Positions 1,107 to 60,628 of a stretch of 64,000 nucleotides of DNA are shown here, in pieces. The first letter of the stretch is position 1; the number at the start of each line of letters is the position of its first letter. Under the pieces are notes generated by a model. That model saw only the letters and a list, made by a program, of their open reading frames with translations, had not been told where the DNA came from and did no database searches. The stretch comes from Candidatus Pseudothioglobus singularis PS1 (GTDB lineage Bacteria; Pseudomonadota; Gammaproteobacteria; PS1; Pseudothioglobaceae): contig NZ_CP006911.1 in assembly GCF_001281385.1 (NCBI RefSeq), forward strand, positions 124,001 through 188,000. Direction: 5' to 3'. The translations under genes were made by a program, and so were the position numbers.

Positions 1107-4100
1107 TTAGAGTGCTTTTCCAAATCCACCACCACCTGGTGTTTTTAGAACAAAAAGATCATTTTTCCGAACCTCTATCTGACCTTTAGTGCCCAATTTT
1201 GTGATACTTTCATCTGAGTGAATAACGTAATTTTCTCCAACGGCACCTGACTCACCTCCAGACACTCCGTAGGGCGGAATTTTCCTATGGCCCGCAATAA
1301 TATTCACTGTCATTGGCTCCAGGAACCGCATCCTTCTATCCACTCCATCTCCCCCTCTATTAAGACCTTTTCCACCAGAATTTTTTCTGATGCTAAATGA
1401 CTCAAGTTTGACTGGGAAGCGCCACTCTAAAACCTCTGGATCAGTTAGCCTTGAATTTGTCATGTGGGTATGAACCGCACTGCAACCAGGCTGATTTGAA
1501 CTGGCTCCAGAACCACCACAAATGGTTTCATAGTTTTGGACTTTATTGTTACCCCAAATATAATTATTCATCGTCCCTTGTGATGCTGCAAATTCTCCTA
1601 GAGCTCCGAGCAAAGCATCAACAATGTATTGCGAAGTCTCAACATTCCCAGAAAATACAGCTGCTGGGTATTGGGGGTTGATCATTGAATGTTTGGGTAT
1701 GATTAAATTTAAAGGTTTTAGGCATCCAGCATTAAGAGGGATATCGTCATCAACTAGGCAACGGAAAACATATAAGACTGCAGCGTAACAAATTGAACTT
1801 GGGGCGTTATAATTTCCTGGGTGTTGACCACTTGTGCCAGTGAAGTCAATGGTTGCAGTACGATTTACTTTGTTGACGCTTATTGAGACTGTGACTTGAT
1901 GACCATCATCCATCTTATATGTAAAGCTTGAATCACTTAATACATCTAAAACTCTTCGAACAGATTCCTCAGCGTTATCTTGAACATGGCTCATGTATGC
2001 GTGAACAACTTCCAGGCCATAGTGCTTGATTATTTTCATTAGTTCTTGAGACCCTTTTTCTGCAGCTGCAACTTGAGCTTTTAAATCAGCAATATTTTGT
2101 TTAATATTTCTAGCAGGGTGTTCACCTAAGCTTAATAATTTGAATATTTCCTTTTCAAGAAATACACCCTTAGCGACTATGGTGAAGTTATCAATTAGTA
2201 CCCCCTCCTCTTTAATATGGGTCGAGTTTGCTGGAGCAGAGCCAGGAACTGTTCCACCAATATCTGCATGGTGACCTCTTGTAGCAACATAGAAAATTAC
2301 GTTCTCATTATTGTCATCAAATACTGGCTTTATAAGTGTAATATCTGGCAAATGTGTGCCCCCATTATATGGGGCGTTAATAAGAAAAGCATCACCTGGA
2401 TTCATCGTGGCAGAATTCTCTCTAATGATCGTCTTAATGGATTCACTCATTGAGCCTAAATGAACTGGAACATGGGGTGCATTTGCTACAAGATCTCCGG
2501 TGGGGGAGAATAATGCACATGAGAAATCTAGACGCTCCTTAATATTAACAGATGAAGCTGTATTCTCAAGAACCATACCCATTTGTTCTGCAACACTCAT
2601 AAATAAATTGTTAAATATTTCCAACATGATGGGGTCTACACTTGTTCCAATAGCACTTGACCTTATGATTTTTTGAGTTCGAGTTAAAAGTAAATCATTG
2701 CTATCTTTAAGAGTTGCATCCCATCCTGGCTCAACTACGATAGTTGATGTTGGTTCAATGATTATGGCTGGACCAGACAGTTTTTCATTCGGTTTAATGT
2801 TGTCCCGATGATAAAAAATAGTCTTTTCAAGTTTTCCATTGATAAATACATCTTGGGTTTTAAGAGGTTTAGTTTTTAGCTTATCAGAGATAATTTTAGT
2901 TGACTCAAATTGCTCACTTTGACATGAAACCTCTGACTGGATTGATTCAATGATGACAATCTTTTCGGGTGAAATAAAGCCAAACCTTGCACTATGTGTT
3001 CTCTCGAAACAAAGTTTCATTCCCTCAACATCTTCAAATGGAACAGCTAATGACGTGTCAGAATCCTTATAGCGGAGATAGACTCGATCAGTATACTGAA
3101 ATAAGTTTTTATTGAGGTTTTGTGAGATTAAATCTTTCTTACCCTTAACATGAAGCCTTTTGAAATTCTTTGAAAGGTCATCAATTTCACTATTTCCAAG
3201 AGGCAATTCAACAGTTAGATCATAGATAGTTCGACTATCGGCAAGTCCAATACCGTAAGCAGACAAAACGCCTGCATAAGGATGAAGATGGATTTGTTTT
3301 ATACCTAATCTATCTGCAACTAAGCATGCGTGTTGTCCACCAGCACCACCAAAACAAGATAAGGCATAGTCGCTGACATCATACCCTCGTTGTACTGATA
3401 TTTTTTTTATAGCGTTGGACATGCTCTCAACAGCGATTGATAAAAATCCTTCTGCAACAGAAGATGGATGGACTGTTTTTTTAGTTTTTAAGGAGATTTC
3501 TTTAGCAAGTTCTGTAAATTTTTTATCAACAATACTGAAGTCAAGTTTTTGATTGGCTTTGGGTCCAAAGACTTTAGGAAAAAATTCTGGATTTAATTTT
3601 CCTAGCATCACATTGCAATCTGTAACGGTAAGAGGACCTCCATTGCGATAACAAGCTGGGCCGGGAAATGCTCCTGCAGAATCAGGTCCTACTCGATATC
3701 TTGAGCCATCAAAATGAAGAATTGATCCTCCACCTGCAGCTACTGTATTTATTAACATCATTGGTGAGCGAAGCCTTACGCCTGCTACTTCAGTCTCAAG
3801 AGTTCTTTCATATTCACCATTAAAGTGACAAACATCTGTGGATGTTCCACCCATATCAAAACCGATGAGCTTATTGAGACCAATCTTCTCACCAGTTTTA
3901 ACCATGCCAACGACTCCACCAGCTGGTCCTGAGAGTATGGCATCCTTGCCTTGAAAATAGTTTGCATCCGTCAAACCTCCATTGGACTGCATAAACATTA
4001 ATTTTCCATAGTCGCTTTGAGTTGGGCCAAGTGCATCTTTGACCTGATTGACGTAGCGACGCAAAATTGGCGATAAGTATGCATCAACGACTGTCGTGTC

Positions 4101-53650: not shown

Positions 53651-54361
53651 TTACTTACTTCCAAAAGCTAAGCAAACTTTTTTAGAGATAGATATTAAGG
53701 CTTTTAAATAACTTTCAATATTATCGTCAGTGAATCGAGTTGTAAGCCCTGACAAGGAGATTACTCCAATCAGCTCTCCATCGCGCCCCAAAATAGGAAC
53801 TGTAATACCTGCAATATCCGGGTCACGCTCTCCATGACTAATATAGTATCCCTGATCTTTTATAATTTTAGACTGAGATGTTTTAGGATTTACAAACGCT
53901 TCTAGCACCTTTCCAGAAGAACCAAGATTAAGGGGATTTATTTCTCCTTCATCGATATGATATCGCATCCTTCTTTTAGAATTTTCACAATAAAGAACTA
54001 CACTTGAATTTCCTCGCAAGACATGAAATGCAGCAGTCTCTTCTGTTTTTTTAACAAGTTCTGTTAAAGCTGGACGAATAATATCTCCTAGTTGAAGGTT
54101 GTCACGGTAAACCGAACTTCGATGCCAAAGAGACGCACCAAGGTGAAAAATACCATCATAATCACGAGTAAGATAACCAAATTTTTCAAGTGAAGCACTA
54201 AGTCGCAATATTGTGGCTTTATTTAGACCAGTTCTTTGGGCAAGCTCTTTAAGTGCTAGACCATTGTCACCCATATTAAATGCCTCCAGAAGACTCAGAG
54301 CTCTTTCAACCGACTCAACACCACTTTTAATAGGCCTAGATTTTTCTTTTGAATTTGTCAT
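53651..54361 (-). CDS. IclR-family transcriptional regulator
   Basis: A 236-residue IclR-type regulator. The N-terminal winged helix is ALSLLEAFNMGDNGLALKEL and TGLNKATILRLSASLEKFGYL; the effector domain has HVLRGNSSVVLYCENSKRR and GITVPILGRDGELIGVISLSG. It is divergent from the binding-protein gene at 54627, with 265 bp between. Two copies of a GAAAC-N3-GTTTC palindrome in the downstream promoters are candidate sites. The effector is probably the imported compound or its product. Confidence 0.9.
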   Translation of the reverse strand: MTNSKEKSRPIKSGVESVERALSLLEAFNMGDNGLALKELAQRTGLNKATILRLSASLEKFGYLTRDYDGIFHLGASLWHRSSVYRDNLQLGDIIRPALTELVKKTEETAAFHVLRGNSSVVLYCENSKRRMRYHIDEGEINPLNLGSSGKVLEAFVNPKTSQSKIIKDQGYYISHGERDPDIAGITVPILGRDGELIGVISLSGLTTRFTDDNIESYLKALISISKKVCLAFGSK

Positions 54362-54500
54362 TTATATATTATTTATTTGGACAGGATATAAAAAATGTTA
54401 CTAGAAAATTTGAAAGAATTGTATAAGTAAAAATTAATAATAAGCTTAACATAATTTCAGAAATACTAAGTCAAAACCAAATTATTTTATAAATTTTTAC

Positions 54501-54542
54501 TTGACTTCTTTTTGATTATACAGCAAAATGAAACAATGTTTC
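54501..54542 (+). promoter_or_regulatory. Promoter with palindromic operator, first binding protein
   Basis: A -35 TTGACT (54501-54506), 17-bp spacer and -10-like CAAAAT (54524-54529) precede the palindrome GAAAC-aat-GTTTC (54530-54542). This arrangement repeats at the second binding-protein gene. The operator abuts the -10 box, fitting repression. Its flank AATGAAACAATGTTTC resembles IclR-family (KdgR-type) sites. A second weaker inverted repeat (AAAC-TTTTA-GTTT) follows. Confidence 0.6.
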
Positions 54543-54566
54543 GTAGAATGAAACTTTTAGTTTTAA

Positions 54567-54754
54567 ATTATGAGACAATATCCAAACTAAATTTTTAATT
54601 TGGAAAATAACTAAAGGAGATTTCAAATGAATAAGTATTTAAAAATAGTGTGCTTAACACTATTAATGGGAATGGGATTTGGCCTTAGTAATATCGCTAA
54701 AGCCGACGGACATTCTGTCATGTTTGCTTCATGGGGTGGATCTTTTCAAGATGC
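54567..54754 (+). repeat. 188-bp exact repeat, block 1 (copy A; copy B 56601-56788)
   Basis: Positions 54567-54754 are identical base for base to 56601-56788 at a constant offset of 2034. The block covers the leader, ribosome-binding site (AAAGGAG), signal peptide and first mature residues of both binding-protein genes. Identity ends abruptly at 54755. Confidence 0.95.
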
Positions 54755-55685
54755 ACTTAGAACAACTATGCTTACACCAGCAGCAGAAAAATTAGGTATT
54801 GAGGTTGAAGAGGATACGACAAACGGCATACAAGACGTACGCAGTCAAATTAGTGCTGGCGCAGTCTCTTGGGATGTTACTGAACAAGAGCTGTCAGTTT
54901 GTGAGACACTAAAACAGGAAGACTCACTTGAGCCACTGGATTATAGTCTTATTAATTCTGCAGGCATTCCTCCAGAGCTTGTCAACAGTCACTATGTGGG
55001 CTTGCTTGCATTTACAAAGGTAATATCATATAGGCAAGATAAGTTTGGTGATAATGGACCACAAAGCTGGGCAGATTTTTGGGATGTTGAAAAATTCCCA
55101 GGAAAGCGTGGTATGCATGGAAAAGTTAACTACAACTTAGAAGCTGCTCTTATGGCTGATGGTGTGCCTAAGAGTGAAATTTATAATGTTCTTTCTACTA
55201 AGAAAGGTCAGGAGCGTGCTTGGGCTAAACTTGCTGAAATTGTTCCACATGTGACAGTATGGTATCGTGGTGGAGCTCAGTCTGCACAACTTATGCGTGA
55301 TGGTGAGGTTGATATGATTCATATGGGACAAAATCATGTGGGATATATTAATGAATCTGGTATCGGAGTGAATTTCACCTTTGATGGTGGAACGATGGAT
55401 GTTGATTGTCTTCTTGTACCAAAAGGAGCACCCAACAAAGATAATGCGATGCGTTTAATTAATGAAATGGTTAGCGCAGAAGCACAGGCAAGACTGGTCA
55501 AGATTATGCCTTTTGGAACTGCGAATAGTGGAGCCTATAGTGTTGGCATTCTAACAGAAGATGAAGCAACTAAACTGCCTACATACCCTGATAACTATGC
55601 TCAGCAACTAGTCATTGATCCAAGCTTTTATATCGGACAGCTCAGTGAGTTAACTGAAAGATTTGATATGTTGATCCAGCAGTAA
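54627..55685 (+). CDS. Polyamine-type ABC transporter substrate-binding protein, copy A
   Basis: A 352-residue periplasmic binding protein of the PotD/PotF-like family 1 group. The signal peptide ends at A25 (NIAKA|DGHS). Mature sequence begins VMFASWGGSFQDALR, typical for spermidine/putrescine-type receptors. RHH-like GGTMDVDCLLVPKGA is near residue 252. It is followed by a strong hairpin, then an alpha/beta hydrolase gene and a second copy. The two copies share two blocks of exact DNA identity but differ elsewhere, so their ligands may differ. It serves the ABC transporter at 57808-60628. Confidence 0.88.
   Translation: MNKYLKIVCLTLLMGMGFGLSNIAKADGHSVMFASWGGSFQDALRTTMLTPAAEKLGIEVEEDTTNGIQDVRSQISAGAVSWDVTEQELSVCETLKQEDSLEPLDYSLINSAGIPPELVNSHYVGLLAFTKVISYRQDKFGDNGPQSWADFWDVEKFPGKRGMHGKVNYNLEAALMADGVPKSEIYNVLSTKKGQERAWAKLAEIVPHVTVWYRGGAQSAQLMRDGEVDMIHMGQNHVGYINESGIGVNFTFDGGTMDVDCLLVPKGAPNKDNAMRLINEMVSAEAQARLVKIMPFGTANSGAYSVGILTEDEATKLPTYPDNYAQQLVIDPSFYIGQLSELTERFDMLIQQ
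55036..55273 (+). repeat. 238-bp exact repeat, block 2 (copy A; copy B 57070-57307)
   Basis: Positions 55036-55273 are identical base for base to 57070-57307 at the same 2034 offset. It covers the middle of both binding proteins (from KFGDNGPQSW to WYRGG). Flanking codons on both sides are diverged, including synonymous positions. Confidence 0.95.
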
Positions 55686-55705
55686 TAATCAATGTTGTTC
55701 TCCTT

Positions 55706-55732
55706 GGGCGCGTTGGTTATTCCAGCACGCCC
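55706..55732 (+). terminator. Hairpin after first binding-protein gene
   Basis: GGGCGCGTTGG (55706-55716) pairs with CCAGCACGCCC (55722-55732) with one mismatch and one G-T pair, loop TTATT. It begins 20 bp after the binding-protein stop and 27 bp before the hydrolase ATG. GC-rich against an AT-rich background and without a T-run, it is likely an mRNA 3'-stabiliser that raises receptor expression over downstream genes. Confidence 0.7.
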
Positions 55733-55758
55733 ATTATTCTGTTACACTAGGGTTAATA

Positions 55759-56487
55759 ATGTCATCAGAAGTCAACATTAATAAATCGGTTGTTTTTATC
55801 CCTGGTGCGCTTTGCAGCGATGAAATCTTCGCTGATCAAATCTCAGGTATCAGTCCACCTTTCAATGCAGTCTTGATAGATACTAGGCAGACCAAAACGA
55901 TAACTGAAATGGCAAATACCATTTTGGCGCAAGCCCCAGATAATTTTTCCCTAGTTGGAATAAGTATGGGCGGCTATGTAGTATTGGAAGTTCTACGTAT
56001 TGCACCTGATAGAGTTTGGGGAGTGGTGCTAATCTCCACTTCGGCGAGAGCTGAAATGCCAGATCAGGCTGAAGAGCGAAAACGATGGATAGATAGAATA
56101 GAATCTGGTCAGTATGAAGATTTTGTTGACGAAATAGTAGATGATTGTATATCTGGCAAAGGTAAGCTGAATAATGCAAGAGAACGTTTTCATGAGATGG
56201 TCAACGCCCATTCAATCGACACGATTAGTCGACAAATGAGCGCCTGTGCAATGAGACCAGATTTCCAAAAAAACCTAAAAGACATTAAATGTCCACTCTT
56301 ATTGATTGGAGGTAGTGATGATTCAGAATTTTTCTTAAATGGACTTAAGGAAATATCAGTAAAAGTAATTTACAGCGAAATTTTAATTTTGCCAAACTGT
56401 GGACATTTGCCAACGATTGAGAGCCCCATCAGAACGACAAATGCAATAAAAAAATTCCTTGTAAAGGCTGAGAAAAGCCTATCTTAA
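55759..56487 (+). CDS. Alpha/beta hydrolase
   Basis: A 242-residue alpha/beta-hydrolase. The nucleophile elbow GISMGGYVVLEVL has Ser95-like position, the oxyanion region VVFIPGALCS is near the N-terminus, the acid is probably in LLIGGSDDSE, and the His is in LPNCGHLPTIE. No signal peptide is visible. It lies between the two receptor copies, so it may process the same substrate, for example by cleaving an ester or amide; this is inference. Confidence 0.82.
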   Translation: MSSEVNINKSVVFIPGALCSDEIFADQISGISPPFNAVLIDTRQTKTITEMANTILAQAPDNFSLVGISMGGYVVLEVLRIAPDRVWGVVLISTSARAEMPDQAEERKRWIDRIESGQYEDFVDEIVDDCISGKGKLNNARERFHEMVNAHSIDTISRQMSACAMRPDFQKNLKDIKCPLLLIGGSDDSEFFLNGLKEISVKVIYSEILILPNCGHLPTIESPIRTTNAIKKFLVKAEKSLS

Positions 56488-56534
56488 TAAATCATATAGC
56501 AAAATTTTTTAATAAGAAAAACTTAAATTTTTAC

Positions 56535-56576
56535 TTGACTTTTTATTCACTATACATCAAAATGAAACTACGTTTC
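56535..56576 (+). promoter_or_regulatory. Promoter with palindromic operator, second binding protein
   Basis: The same layout as at 54501: TTGACT (56535-56540), 17-bp spacer, CAAAAT (56558-56563), then GAAAC-tac-GTTTC (56564-56576). The palindrome arms and -10 are conserved while the 3-base spacer and the 17-bp region differ, which is what selection on regulator binding would leave. Confidence 0.6.
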
Positions 56577-56600
56577 GTATAATGAAACTTTTAGTTTTAT

Positions 56601-56788
56601 ATTATGAGACAATATCCAAACTAAATTTTTAATTTGGAAAATAACTAAAGGAGATTTCAAATGAATAAGTATTTAAAAATAGTGTGCTTAACACTATTAA
56701 TGGGAATGGGATTTGGCCTTAGTAATATCGCTAAAGCCGACGGACATTCTGTCATGTTTGCTTCATGGGGTGGATCTTTTCAAGATGC
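56601..56788 (+). repeat. 188-bp exact repeat, block 1 (copy B)
   Basis: Second copy of the block at 54567-54754, base for base identical. It spans the leader and signal peptide region of the second binding-protein gene and stops where the two coding sequences diverge (56789). Confidence 0.95.
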
Positions 56789-57719
56789 GCTTAGATCTTC
56801 AATGCTAGCTCCCGCTGCCCAAGATTTAGGTATTGAAGTTAAAGAAGATACAACCAATGGTATTCAAGATGTCCGTGCTCAGATTTCAGCTAATGCTGTT
56901 GCCTGGGATGTAGCGGAAATGGAATTATCTGCTTGTGAAACACTTTCAAGAGATGGTATGTTAGAGCCTATCGACTACAAAATGGTGGATGCTTCAGGAA
57001 TCCCATCTGATTTGCGACAAGATAACTATATTGGCTTTATTAACTTCACTAAAGTCATTGCCTACAGAAAAGATAAGTTTGGTGATAATGGACCACAAAG
57101 CTGGGCAGATTTTTGGGATGTTGAAAAATTCCCAGGAAAGCGTGGTATGCATGGAAAAGTTAACTACAACTTAGAAGCTGCTCTTATGGCTGATGGTGTG
57201 CCTAAGAGTGAAATTTATAATGTTCTTTCTACTAAGAAAGGTCAGGAGCGTGCTTGGGCTAAACTTGCTGAAATTGTTCCACATGTGACAGTATGGTATC
57301 GTGGTGGTTCTCAATCAGCGCAGATTCTTCGCGATGGTGAAGTTGATGTAGTCCATATGGGTCATAATCGAGTTGAGAGTGTTGCAAACTCTGGCGTTGA
57401 TGTAGCTTATACTTTCCAAGATGGCACGATGGATGTTGATTGTCTTCTCGTTCCAAAAGGTGCGCCAAATTATTCTAATGCAATGAAGCTTATAAACTCT
57501 GTATTATCAGCTTCATCTCAAGCTACATTAGCTAAAACAATGCCTCTTGGCCCTGTAAACAAGTATGCATTTGATGCAGGTGTACTAAGCATTGAACAAG
57601 CAAAAAATGTTAATACTCATCCAGATAATTATGACAAGCAATTGTTAGTTGATCCAAATTTCTATATTGGTCAACTAGATGTTCTAACAGAGCGCTTTGA
57701 TACACTAATCCAGCAATAG
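56661..57719 (+). CDS. Polyamine-type ABC transporter substrate-binding protein, copy B
   Basis: A 352-residue paralog of the receptor at 54627, same length, signal peptide and domain plan. Between residues 44 and 136 and after 217 it differs (for example ELSACETLSRDG against ELSVCETLKQED), while the signal peptide and residues about 138-216 are identical in DNA. It is the copy nearest to the ABC ATPase and permease genes, 88 bp before the ATPase ATG. Divergence lies in parts likely to contact ligand, so the two receptors may bind different compounds. Confidence 0.88.
   Translation: MNKYLKIVCLTLLMGMGFGLSNIAKADGHSVMFASWGGSFQDALRSSMLAPAAQDLGIEVKEDTTNGIQDVRAQISANAVAWDVAEMELSACETLSRDGMLEPIDYKMVDASGIPSDLRQDNYIGFINFTKVIAYRKDKFGDNGPQSWADFWDVEKFPGKRGMHGKVNYNLEAALMADGVPKSEIYNVLSTKKGQERAWAKLAEIVPHVTVWYRGGSQSAQILRDGEVDVVHMGHNRVESVANSGVDVAYTFQDGTMDVDCLLVPKGAPNYSNAMKLINSVLSASSQATLAKTMPLGPVNKYAFDAGVLSIEQAKNVNTHPDNYDKQLLVDPNFYIGQLDVLTERFDTLIQQ
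57070..57307 (+). repeat. 238-bp exact repeat, block 2 (copy B)
   Basis: Second copy of the block at 55036-55273 inside the second receptor gene, base for base identical, with diverged sequence on both sides. Confidence 0.95.
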
Positions 57720-57807: not shown

Positions 57808-58914
57808 ATGAGTATGTCAAATACCGATCATGAAAATCAAAAATCTTTGCCTATTGGCATCAAAAGTTTAAGCAAATCCTATGGTGATGTCTACGCACTA
57901 GAGGATGTTTCATTAGACATTAAAGCTGGTGAATTTATCACACTACTTGGTCCATCTGGATCAGGAAAAACAACTTTACTGATGACTATAGCAGGTTTTG
58001 TTAGTCCAGATCAAGGCAGTATTTACTTTGGCCAGCAAGAGATGACTATGACACCCCCTCATATGAGAGGATTGGGGATGGTATTCCAGAATTACGCTCT
58101 ATTTCCATTTATGTCGGTTGCTGAAAATGTTGGTTATCCACTTCGTGTTCGTGGAATGTCTGAGACTGATCAAAAAAAGAAAATTGACGCAGCTCTTGAA
58201 ATGGTTCAACTGGAAGGATATGGTGAGCGAAGAATCCATCAGCTTTCTGGTGGTCAAAAGCAGCGCGTAGCTCTCGCTCGTGCAATGGTCTTTGAGCCTA
58301 AGATTATTTTGATGGATGAGCCTCTATCCGCCTTAGACAAAAAGTTACGAGAGCATATGCAAATAGAACTTAAGGCACTTCATCAAAAACTTGAAGCAAC
58401 TATTGTTTATGTAACTCATGACCAGCGAGAAGCATTGACTATGTCAGATCGTATTGCAGTTATTAATAATGGGCGTCTTGTTCAGGTTGATGCTCCAAAG
58501 GCACTTTATGATAATCCTAAAGACCTATTTGTTGCTGACTTCATTGGAGAATCAGTTCTTCTTCAACTAGAGAATTCAAAAGATGGCCTTATTTTAAGAG
58601 GCCAGCCTTTAAAGATGAATAACCCTCAGCCGAAAGGAGTTGATCCATACTGTCTTGTTATTCGTCCAGAGCTTTTAGTTATGTCCAATTCAAAGGCTGA
58701 TACAGTGAACGATCTTTCAGGAATAGTCAGTGCATCAGTCTATCAAGGAGAAAGTGTACTGGTATTGGTAGACCTAGGTAAGGATACTAAAATTAGTGTC
58801 AGATTGCCTGCCAGCAAGTCACAAAGTAGCAACAATATTCCTGAAGTAGGTAAGCCAATTCAACTTGGCCTTCATGCTGAAGATGTCATTATCGTTGAGG
58901 GAACTGTTGAATGA
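57808..58914 (+). CDS. ABC transporter ATP-binding protein, PotA-like
   Basis: A 368-residue ATPase of the spermidine/putrescine type. Walker A is GPSGSGKTTLL (near 49), the Q-loop VFQNYALFPFMS, signature LSGGQKQRVALARA, Walker B ILMDEPLSALD, and the His switch VTHDQREALT. A C-terminal TOBE domain follows (about residues 290-365). It drives the two permeases downstream. Its stop overlaps the next ATG (ATGA). Confidence 0.93.
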   Translation: MSMSNTDHENQKSLPIGIKSLSKSYGDVYALEDVSLDIKAGEFITLLGPSGSGKTTLLMTIAGFVSPDQGSIYFGQQEMTMTPPHMRGLGMVFQNYALFPFMSVAENVGYPLRVRGMSETDQKKKIDAALEMVQLEGYGERRIHQLSGGQKQRVALARAMVFEPKIILMDEPLSALDKKLREHMQIELKALHQKLEATIVYVTHDQREALTMSDRIAVINNGRLVQVDAPKALYDNPKDLFVADFIGESVLLQLENSKDGLILRGQPLKMNNPQPKGVDPYCLVIRPELLVMSNSKADTVNDLSGIVSASVYQGESVLVLVDLGKDTKISVRLPASKSQSSNNIPEVGKPIQLGLHAEDVIIVEGTVE

Positions 58915-59807
58915 ATATAGTTGCCAATAATCATTTAGAAGGAGTTAATAGCAAGGCTCTTGCAAAAGCACGTCGAAAAGAGGGCAGGTTATTTTTTAAT
59001 CTATCACTTCCATCTCTTATCACCATTTTGATTGTTGTATTTATTCCAGTATTCTGGCTTTCATCTCTCTCATTTTTTGACCGTGCTGGTGTTTTCTCTT
59101 GGGAAAATTATGATCGAATTTTTCAAAGCCAACTCTATATCAAAACATTCATAGTTACCCTCAAAATTAGTTTTATTACTCTGTTCTTTTGTATACTTCT
59201 CGGGTATCCACTATGTTACTGGTTATCGCAACTTCCTGACCGATTGGCAGGAATTCTTATGGTTTTTGTTTTGTTACCATTTTGGACTTCAATTCTTGTT
59301 CGAACATATGCCTGGCTGGTTATTCTTCAACGCAATGGAATTATTAACGACACCCTTATTTCAATCGGCTGGATTGATGAACCCCTTCAATTAGCGCATA
59401 ATTTAACCGGAAGTATTATTGGTATGGTTCATATTTTATTACCATTTTTTATCCTTCCACTATTCGCTTCGATGCGTTCAATTGATACTAATTTCATTAG
59501 AGCTGCAATTAGTCTAGGGTCAACTCCTCGTGGAGCATTCTGGCGAGTTTTCTTTAAAATGTCTTTGCCTGGTTTTTTTGCTGGCACAGTTCTGGTATTT
59601 GTTCTCGCATTGGGTACTTATGTAACCCCCGCATTGCTTGGCGGTGGAAAAATACAGATGCTTGCTCAACGAATAGATTCAACTATTATGCTGTATTCGA
59701 ACTGGGGCGCAGCAAGTGCTCTAGGTGTAGTTCTTCTGATTTTGGCGTTTGCCACTATCTGGATTTTCAATCGTGCCTTTGGCATTGATAAATTATTTAT
59801 GAGGTAG
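58911..59807 (+). CDS. ABC transporter permease, PotB-like
   Basis: A 298-residue inner-membrane permease with about six helices. The EAA loop is RAAISLGSTPRGAFWRVFFKMSLPG near residue 200, the site of contact with the ATPase. LLPFWTSILVRTYAWLVILQ is a family signature. It overlaps the ATPase gene by four bases and is 5 bp before the next permease. Confidence 0.92.
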   Translation: MNIVANNHLEGVNSKALAKARRKEGRLFFNLSLPSLITILIVVFIPVFWLSSLSFFDRAGVFSWENYDRIFQSQLYIKTFIVTLKISFITLFFCILLGYPLCYWLSQLPDRLAGILMVFVLLPFWTSILVRTYAWLVILQRNGIINDTLISIGWIDEPLQLAHNLTGSIIGMVHILLPFFILPLFASMRSIDTNFIRAAISLGSTPRGAFWRVFFKMSLPGFFAGTVLVFVLALGTYVTPALLGGGKIQMLAQRIDSTIMLYSNWGAASALGVVLLILAFATIWIFNRAFGIDKLFMR

Positions 59808-59812
59808 GAAGA

Positions 59813-60628
59813 ATGGCTGCAATCGAAATGGTAGGTAAAAGAAAATATAATAATCTCTGGCTGGGAGTTGCTGGAGTTTGCATACTTTTTTTTCTTTCAC
59901 TTCCCACGTTAATCGTAATTCCGATGTCTTTTTCTGGAGCCTCTTATCTAGAATTTCCTCCTGAGTCTTGGTCGTTTCGTTGGTATGAGTCTTATTTTGG
60001 ATCGAGTGAGTGGATGAGATCTACAAAAACGTCCTTGCTCGTAGCCTTTTTGACTACACTTATTGCAACTCCATTAGGTTCTTTGGCAGCATACGGTTTA
60101 ACATTTACTTCTGCAAGAGTAAGGAATGCTTCTCAGCTTCTTGTCGTCATTCCAATCCTGGTGCCAGTTATACTTATTGCGATTGGTGTATTTCATCTTT
60201 ATGCAAAACTGGGTCTAAATTACACAATCACTGGAATCGTTATTGCCCATACTTCATTAGCAGTTCCATTTGTTATCATTACTGTACTTGCTGGGTTAAA
60301 AAATTATGATTTTAATCAAGAACTTGCTGCTCGAAGCCTTGGCGCATCTCGTCCAAGAGCTCTATTAACGATTACACTTCCACAAGTTAAGTTTTCAATC
60401 CAGACGGGCGCATTGCTTGCTTTTATAACCTCACTCGATGAGGTAGTTGTTTCGATGTTTGTTTCGGGTGGAGAAAATGCGACAATCACTCGTCGTATGT
60501 TTAATTCTTTGAGAGACCAAGTGGACCCAACAATTGCTGCAATATCAACTTGTCTGATTTTTGTCTCTGTCAGCGCTTTAGTTACTGTAATTATTTTTAA
60601 TAGAAATCAAAATAAGGATCAATCATGA
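59813..60628 (+). CDS. ABC transporter permease, PotC-like
   Basis: A 271-residue second permease with about six helices. The EAA loop is AARSLGASRPRALLTITLPQ near residue 177. MSFSGASYLEFPP near the N-terminus is family-typical. With the PotA-like and PotB-like genes it completes the transporter; either receptor could feed it. Ureohydrolase genes start 57 bp later, so it is probably the same transcript. Confidence 0.92.
   Translation: MAAIEMVGKRKYNNLWLGVAGVCILFFLSLPTLIVIPMSFSGASYLEFPPESWSFRWYESYFGSSEWMRSTKTSLLVAFLTTLIATPLGSLAAYGLTFTSARVRNASQLLVVIPILVPVILIAIGVFHLYAKLGLNYTITGIVIAHTSLAVPFVIITVLAGLKNYDFNQELAARSLGASRPRALLTITLPQVKFSIQTGALLAFITSLDEVVVSMFVSGGENATITRRMFNSLRDQVDPTIAAISTCLIFVSVSALVTVIIFNRNQNKDQS

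Follow-up and report, generated by a model that had tools for sequence, protein, structure and literature searches.

Ectopic gene conversion is known as an interlocus exchange between bacterial gene copies from the tufA/tufB pair and the ribosomal RNA (rRNA) operons, as described in the accessible parts of two reports (PMC6053082, PMC8022953). As far as the accessible part of a further source tells, the release-factor genes RF1 and RF2, which represent old, functionally distinct bacterial paralogs, likewise underwent conversion, and its title speaks of multiple conversions (PMC4530459). Here, we describe two tandem genes, A and B, which encode periplasmic substrate-binding proteins (SBPs) of an ATP-binding cassette (ABC) transporter in the small marine sulfur-oxidising bacterium Candidatus Pseudothioglobus singularis PS1. 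The organism was published as 'Candidatus Thioglobus singularis' PS1 (PMC4616169), is currently listed as Pseudothioglobus singularis, and its genome comprises a single contig of 1,714,148 bp, from which a stretch of 64,000 bp was analysed (the window, to which all positions refer). Compared to tufA/tufB and the rRNA operons, the case in PS1 involves two short tracts in genes that are otherwise only 61-62% identical, is found in a single genome and shows no sign of long-term homogenisation; compared to RF1/RF2, it concerns tandem receptor genes and, again, one genome only. With respect to their products, A and B are alike to the MotA/AgtB/Atu4243-type opine and gamma-aminobutyric acid (GABA) receptors by sequence, and a model of A also by fold, but differ from these relatives in carrying G234 and N236, and A additionally in H237.

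A gap-free comparison of A and B, position by position at a constant offset of 2034 bp, showed two blocks of 188 bp and 238 bp without any difference (coordinates in the table below), exactly as the initial annotation had placed them. Over the whole genes, 268 of 1056 coding positions differ, and all of these differences fall into the 690 coding positions outside the blocks, where the nucleotide identity amounts to 61-62%. Within the coding frame, the longest identical runs comprise 238, 128 and then 23 nt, compared to a longest run of 54 nt when the differences were shuffled 20,000 times. The contrast is equally clear for codons specifying the same amino acid in both genes (without Met and Trp): outside the blocks 89 of 135 differ (40/57 and 49/78), with a saturated synonymous distance, while in the block-bearing codons 1-42 and 137-215 none of 109 does (0/37 and 0/72). 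Within these codons, A and B differ only once, namely at the first base of codon 137, which lies directly outside block 2. Hence, the divergence is not uniform along the genes, and the earlier statement that the remaining sequence is diverged also at synonymous sites was confirmed. Abrupt block ends, which had also been claimed, were found for three of the four ends. The exception is the left end of block 1, since the preceding stretch (54490-54566) differs from the one before B (56524-56600) at only 9 of 77 positions (12%), and the similarity ends further left. This stretch represents the promoter/operator region, a part of which is also conserved in the orthologs. No other repeats of at least 45 bp were found within the window with an 18-base exact seed.

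The comparison with orthologs, named by the initial annotation as a check, was made with two relatives. Among 83 genomes of the family (PS1 included), only the genomes G003 (locus L033) and G010 (locus L032) contain close relatives of the receptors besides PS1 itself, with 71% amino acid identity to A; for 34 of the 83 genomes the completeness is below 90% or the contamination above 5%, and absences in these are weak. Both loci comprise, in this order, iclR, promoter, a single receptor gene and the ATPase gene, and neither A nor the hydrolase gene located between A and B in PS1 was found at the locus in L032 or L033. Within the blocks, the orthologs differ from B: of the codons for the same amino acid, 11 of 30 in block 1 and 13 of 70 in block 2 differ for L033, and 11 of 30 and 20 of 69, respectively, for L032. 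Since the orthologs differ from B in these regions, mere conservation does not account for the blocks. The alternative that extreme purifying selection or a signal at the nucleotide level holds the blocks identical without any exchange is contradicted by these synonymous differences; no support for it was found, and its probability is regarded as negligible.

The synonymous distance (dS) between B and the orthologs ranges from 0.34 to 0.78 in the blocks and from 0.48 to 0.83 in the two other segments of B, with about 0.6 for the whole gene. As the values are alike in the blocks and elsewhere, B has one history throughout, which identifies A as the recipient. A transfer from A to B is ruled out, because in B, the blocks and the remaining sequence are about equally distant from the orthologs. 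Between A and B, zero changes were determined over about 74 synonymous sites in the blocks; consequently, the event took place long after PS1 and the relatives had separated.

Phylogenetic analyses showed different affiliations of A inside and outside the blocks. Relatives of B were collected from genome contigs as the best 80 of 273 stretches, among which the own or near genomes may be missing; protein trees were calculated with 22 hand-chosen loci of these 80 plus A and B, and nucleotide topology tests with five loci plus A and B. Based on the 229 amino acids outside the blocks, A was placed outside a clade of B, the two orthologs and L034, a locus on an alphaproteobacterial metagenome-assembled genome (MAG) (ultrafast bootstrap, UFBoot, 94), whereas in the blocks A paired with B on a near-zero branch (UFBoot 82). 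For the nucleotides outside the blocks, a pair of A and B was rejected with a p value of the approximately unbiased test (p-AU) of 0.0002. Here, a split of A before L034 reached a p-AU of 0.09 and a split after L034 one of 0.92, which leans against the protein tree. For the nucleotides of the blocks, the pair of A and B was the best topology, and a position of A outside L034 was rejected (p-AU 0.03). The identity of B to L034 amounts to 69% in block 2 compared to 64-66% in the two diverged segments.

Altogether, the locus shows identity tracts that include synonymous sites, a non-reciprocal transfer and different trees for tracts and flanks, and it is probable that the blocks result from a recent one-way ectopic gene conversion from B to A. 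This supports the gene conversion between the copies suggested by the initial annotation, to which the direction is now added from the dS values and the ortholog comparison. According to this explanation, B would be the old resident of the locus, and A would be either a diverged, much older paralog or a relative obtained by horizontal transfer; today, A and the hydrolase gene are located between the gene of the IclR regulator and B. Sequence of B would recently have been copied into A, namely 188 bp covering leader and signal peptide and 238 bp from the middle of the gene, by an exchange between direct repeats 2 kb apart, either as two tracts or as a single tract that was patchily repaired. 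Provided that the deposited sequence is correct, the mosaic, its direction and its recency are demonstrated by these data. The recombination itself would have proceeded via RecA-type pairing or template switching, and the event presumably took place in the cell lineage rather than in the assembly.

Some observations weigh against gene conversion in the cell. For the assembly of the PS1 genome, SOLiD mate-pair reads were used, and PCR served to close 177 gaps with a mean of 198 bp (PMC4616169). Exact repeats of 188 and 238 bp, which resemble this mean gap size, pose difficulties to such an assembly, and gaps could be located in them; thus, the blocks in A might be wrong or falsely exact due to a collapse of short reads, or a gap in A might have been filled with sequence of B. 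However, a collapse needs prior near-identity; it could mask a few differences, but should not turn 61%-identical sequence into identical sequence. In addition, the reading frames of A and B are both intact and mutually in register, and extra PCRs as well as coverage and insert-size checks were reported by the PS1 authors (PMC4616169). An assembly artefact is thus considered improbable and the mosaic probably survives these doubts, while the complete absence of differences is only as reliable as the closing of the gaps. A further point is the low homology of A and B outside the blocks, since conversion rates are said to drop sharply with lower homology (accessible part of PMC8022953, citing Morris and Drouin 2007). 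Furthermore, in the blocks a topology with A as the sister of the complete Thioglobus B clade was not rejected (p-AU 0.40), which is expected because A equals B there. Finally, no second strain with A was found, neither among 58 genomes searched with protein B nor among the 83 family genomes or 369 genomes evenly drawn from the class. With B as query, 22 of the 58 genomes (PS1 included) gave matches at E values up to 0.001, with 95% identity for G003 and G010 and at most 44% for the other genomes besides PS1, the top two of these being short stretches. With A as query, 18 of the 83 family genomes (PS1 included) matched at 1e-30, with at most 34% identity apart from PS1, G003 and G010, and three of the 369 class genomes matched at 1e-60, namely PS1 and two others at 36-37%. 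Among viral contigs, 11 stretches fitted a pattern, none of which was confirmed.

An integration event could account for a part of the mosaic and is compatible with conversion: A and the hydrolase gene would have arrived on foreign DNA that recombined within the leader of B; block 1 would then represent the duplicated crossover site, and only block 2 would have been converted. The organisation of L032 and L033 (iclR-promoter-SBP-ATPase, without A or hydrolase) and the position of block 1 close to the 5' border of the additional 2034-bp unit would agree with such a scar, which nonetheless leaves block 2 unexplained and needs conversion anyway. Moreover, the two promoter copies in front of block 1 already show a difference of 12%, and inspection by eye showed that at the differing promoter sites the orthologs agree partly with A and partly with B, so that either promoter may be the native one. 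The base composition also marks neither A nor the hydrolase gene as plainly foreign: the G+C content is 0.41 in A (blocks excluded) and 0.39 in the hydrolase gene, and nine further genes or segments at this locus range within 0.36-0.40. Integration is judged unlikely. The same mosaic in a single genome would also be obtained by a recent tandem duplication of B, in which parts of the duplicate were then replaced by foreign A-type DNA and the blocks are its leftovers. This would require two replacement tracts from an A-type donor, which was found neither in the 83 family genomes nor in the 369 class genomes (E <=1e-60 in the class), and the difference of 12% between the upstream promoter copies does not fit a recent duplicate. 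Accordingly, such a duplication appears very unlikely, and gene conversion from B to A is retained as the explanation.

The gene order of the locus is IclR regulator (minus strand), A, alpha/beta-hydrolase, B, ATPase, two permeases and three arginase-family genes. The coordinates are compiled in the following table.

Table 1. Features of the receptor locus of PS1 (positions in the window).
Feature	Position	Strand	Remark
IclR-family regulator	53651..54361	-	Pfam IclR_C and HTH_IclR; divergent from the receptor genes; same position in L033 and L032
Promoter/operator region of A	54490..54566	+	palindrome GAAAC-AAT-GTTTC at 54530 (54530-54542)
Block 1 in A	54567..54754	+	60 leader bases, codons 1-42 (signal peptide, first strand) plus two bases from codon 43
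Gene A, periplasmic substrate-binding protein, 352 aa	54627..55685	+	probable conversion recipient; absent at the locus in both relatives having the locus
Diverged middle part of A	54755..55035	+	61% nt identity to B over codons 43-136
Block 2 in A	55036..55273	+	codon 137 second base to codon 216 second base
Diverged 3' part of A	55274..55685	+	62% nt identity to B over codons 216-352
Alpha/beta-hydrolase, between A and B	55759..56487	+	Pfam Ndr, Abhydrolase_6, Abhydrolase_1
Promoter/operator region of B	56524..56600	+	palindrome GAAAC-TAC-GTTTC at 56564 (56564-56576)
Block 1 in B, probable donor copy	56601..56788	+	
Gene B, native periplasmic substrate-binding protein, 352 codons	56661..57719	+	95% aa identity to single-copy orthologs
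Block 2 in B, probable donor copy	57070..57307	+	
ABC transporter ATPase, PotA-like	57808..58914	+	TIGR01187 potA, above cut-off
Permease 1, PotB-like	58911..59807	+	below family cut-offs
Permease 2, PotC-like	59813..60628	+	below family cut-offs

The hydrolase gene showed, among 29 genomes of the genus, a best match by E value outside the locus of only 31% identity. Judged from the gene order in L032 and L033, A and the hydrolase gene are either extra in PS1 or were lost from both relatives. Between these two genes, a strong hairpin is predicted at 55683-55760 (GGGCGCG...CACGCCC), which occurs only once in the genome and may represent a terminator or an insertion trace. The GAAAC-NNN-GTTTC palindrome of the two promoter/operator regions also precedes the single receptor gene of L033, and that of L032 with a 4-base spacer; a third match in the window is located at position 3006. 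The palindromes, which presumably resemble the operators of IclR-family regulators such as KdgR, are possible operators of the adjacent IclR-type regulator.

Downstream of the transporter, three tandem arginase-family genes (PF00491, 60686-63569) were observed. The canonical metal-ligand motifs of this family are GGDHS and DxHxD. As judged by eye from translations and alignments, the trio lacks these usual motifs, with GGDGR, GGDYS and GGDSS instead of GGDHS and a loss of DxHxD. The three genes are kept in L033 (76-84%), whereas the versions in L034 are more diverged and have also lost GGDHS where aligned. The trio could encode a conserved non-metal or non-catalytic assembly. A similar gene set comprising receptor, ATPase, two permeases, IclR and arginase-like genes is present at L034 (5832-12779), on a MAG contig labelled Pseudoprimorskyibacter sp., which suggests either that the entire locus moved horizontally or that the contig was misbinned.

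A and B belong to the SBP_bac_8 family (PF13416) with E values of 7e-39 and 1.5e-37, respectively. For both, the mannopine receptor MotA was the best sequence match in the PDB (E about 1e-64). The structural model of A, with a mean predicted local distance difference test (pLDDT) score of 90.7, matched MotA chains best (TM-scores of 0.81-0.88), and also the GABA receptor Atu4243. Based on sequence and fold for A and on sequence for B, both genes encode MotA/GABA-type binding proteins of ABC transporters. For the GABA sensor Pf622, the accessible part of the source names the pocket residues W9, T13, F100, F102, W202, R205, D228 and Y264 (PMC12999171). Using HMMER alignments and a chain number equal to the number in the paper plus 6, with which the letters fit, these residues were placed at positions 36, 40, 127, 129, 234, 237, 260 and 296 of A and B. 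In the sequence alignment, W36, F129 and D260 are kept in both proteins, while the remaining Pf622 residues differ, except for R237 in B; by this alignment, the pocket does not correspond to that of Pf622. The equivalent of W202 (position 234) is a glycine in both A and B. G234 and N236 are shared by A, B, both orthologs and L034, whereas the other 17 aligned relatives carry W and G at these positions. At position 237, histidine was found in A alone, compared to arginine in B and all 22 aligned relatives. The exchange of R237 to H in A and the G/N pair at 234 and 236 point to a ligand that is not GABA, and A and B may even differ in their ligands.

The initial annotation had further proposed that conversion could keep signal peptide and core identical while the ligand-contacting parts evolve. 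Indeed, block 1 holds the signal peptide, but the sparing of the pocket was no better than chance. Two of the eight pocket positions are located in block 1, none in block 2 and six outside, compared to 231 of 326 mature residues (71%) outside the blocks (P = 0.57; residue 137, which differs, was counted as inside the block). Outside the blocks, three of the six pocket positions differ between A and B, compared to 90 of all 231 residues. The data thus speak well for the conversion itself, but not for a selective purpose. It is rather unlikely that conversion acts on these about 61%-identical genes as a domain-wise tuning instead of neutral noise, in which a function-shifted A (Arg to His) would receive the leader, the signal peptide and perhaps the docking surface of B, so that one transporter would serve two ligands.

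Very likely, the event is real and an ordinary one of a known kind in an unusual setting, namely between unusually different genes. If the deposited sequence is right, it represents a clean, polarised short-tract conversion between strongly diverged neighbours in a small marine genome, and a single transporter locus that carries an additional receptor with a different residue at a key position of its predicted pocket. As a consequence, phylogenies based on the full-length A protein would mix two histories.

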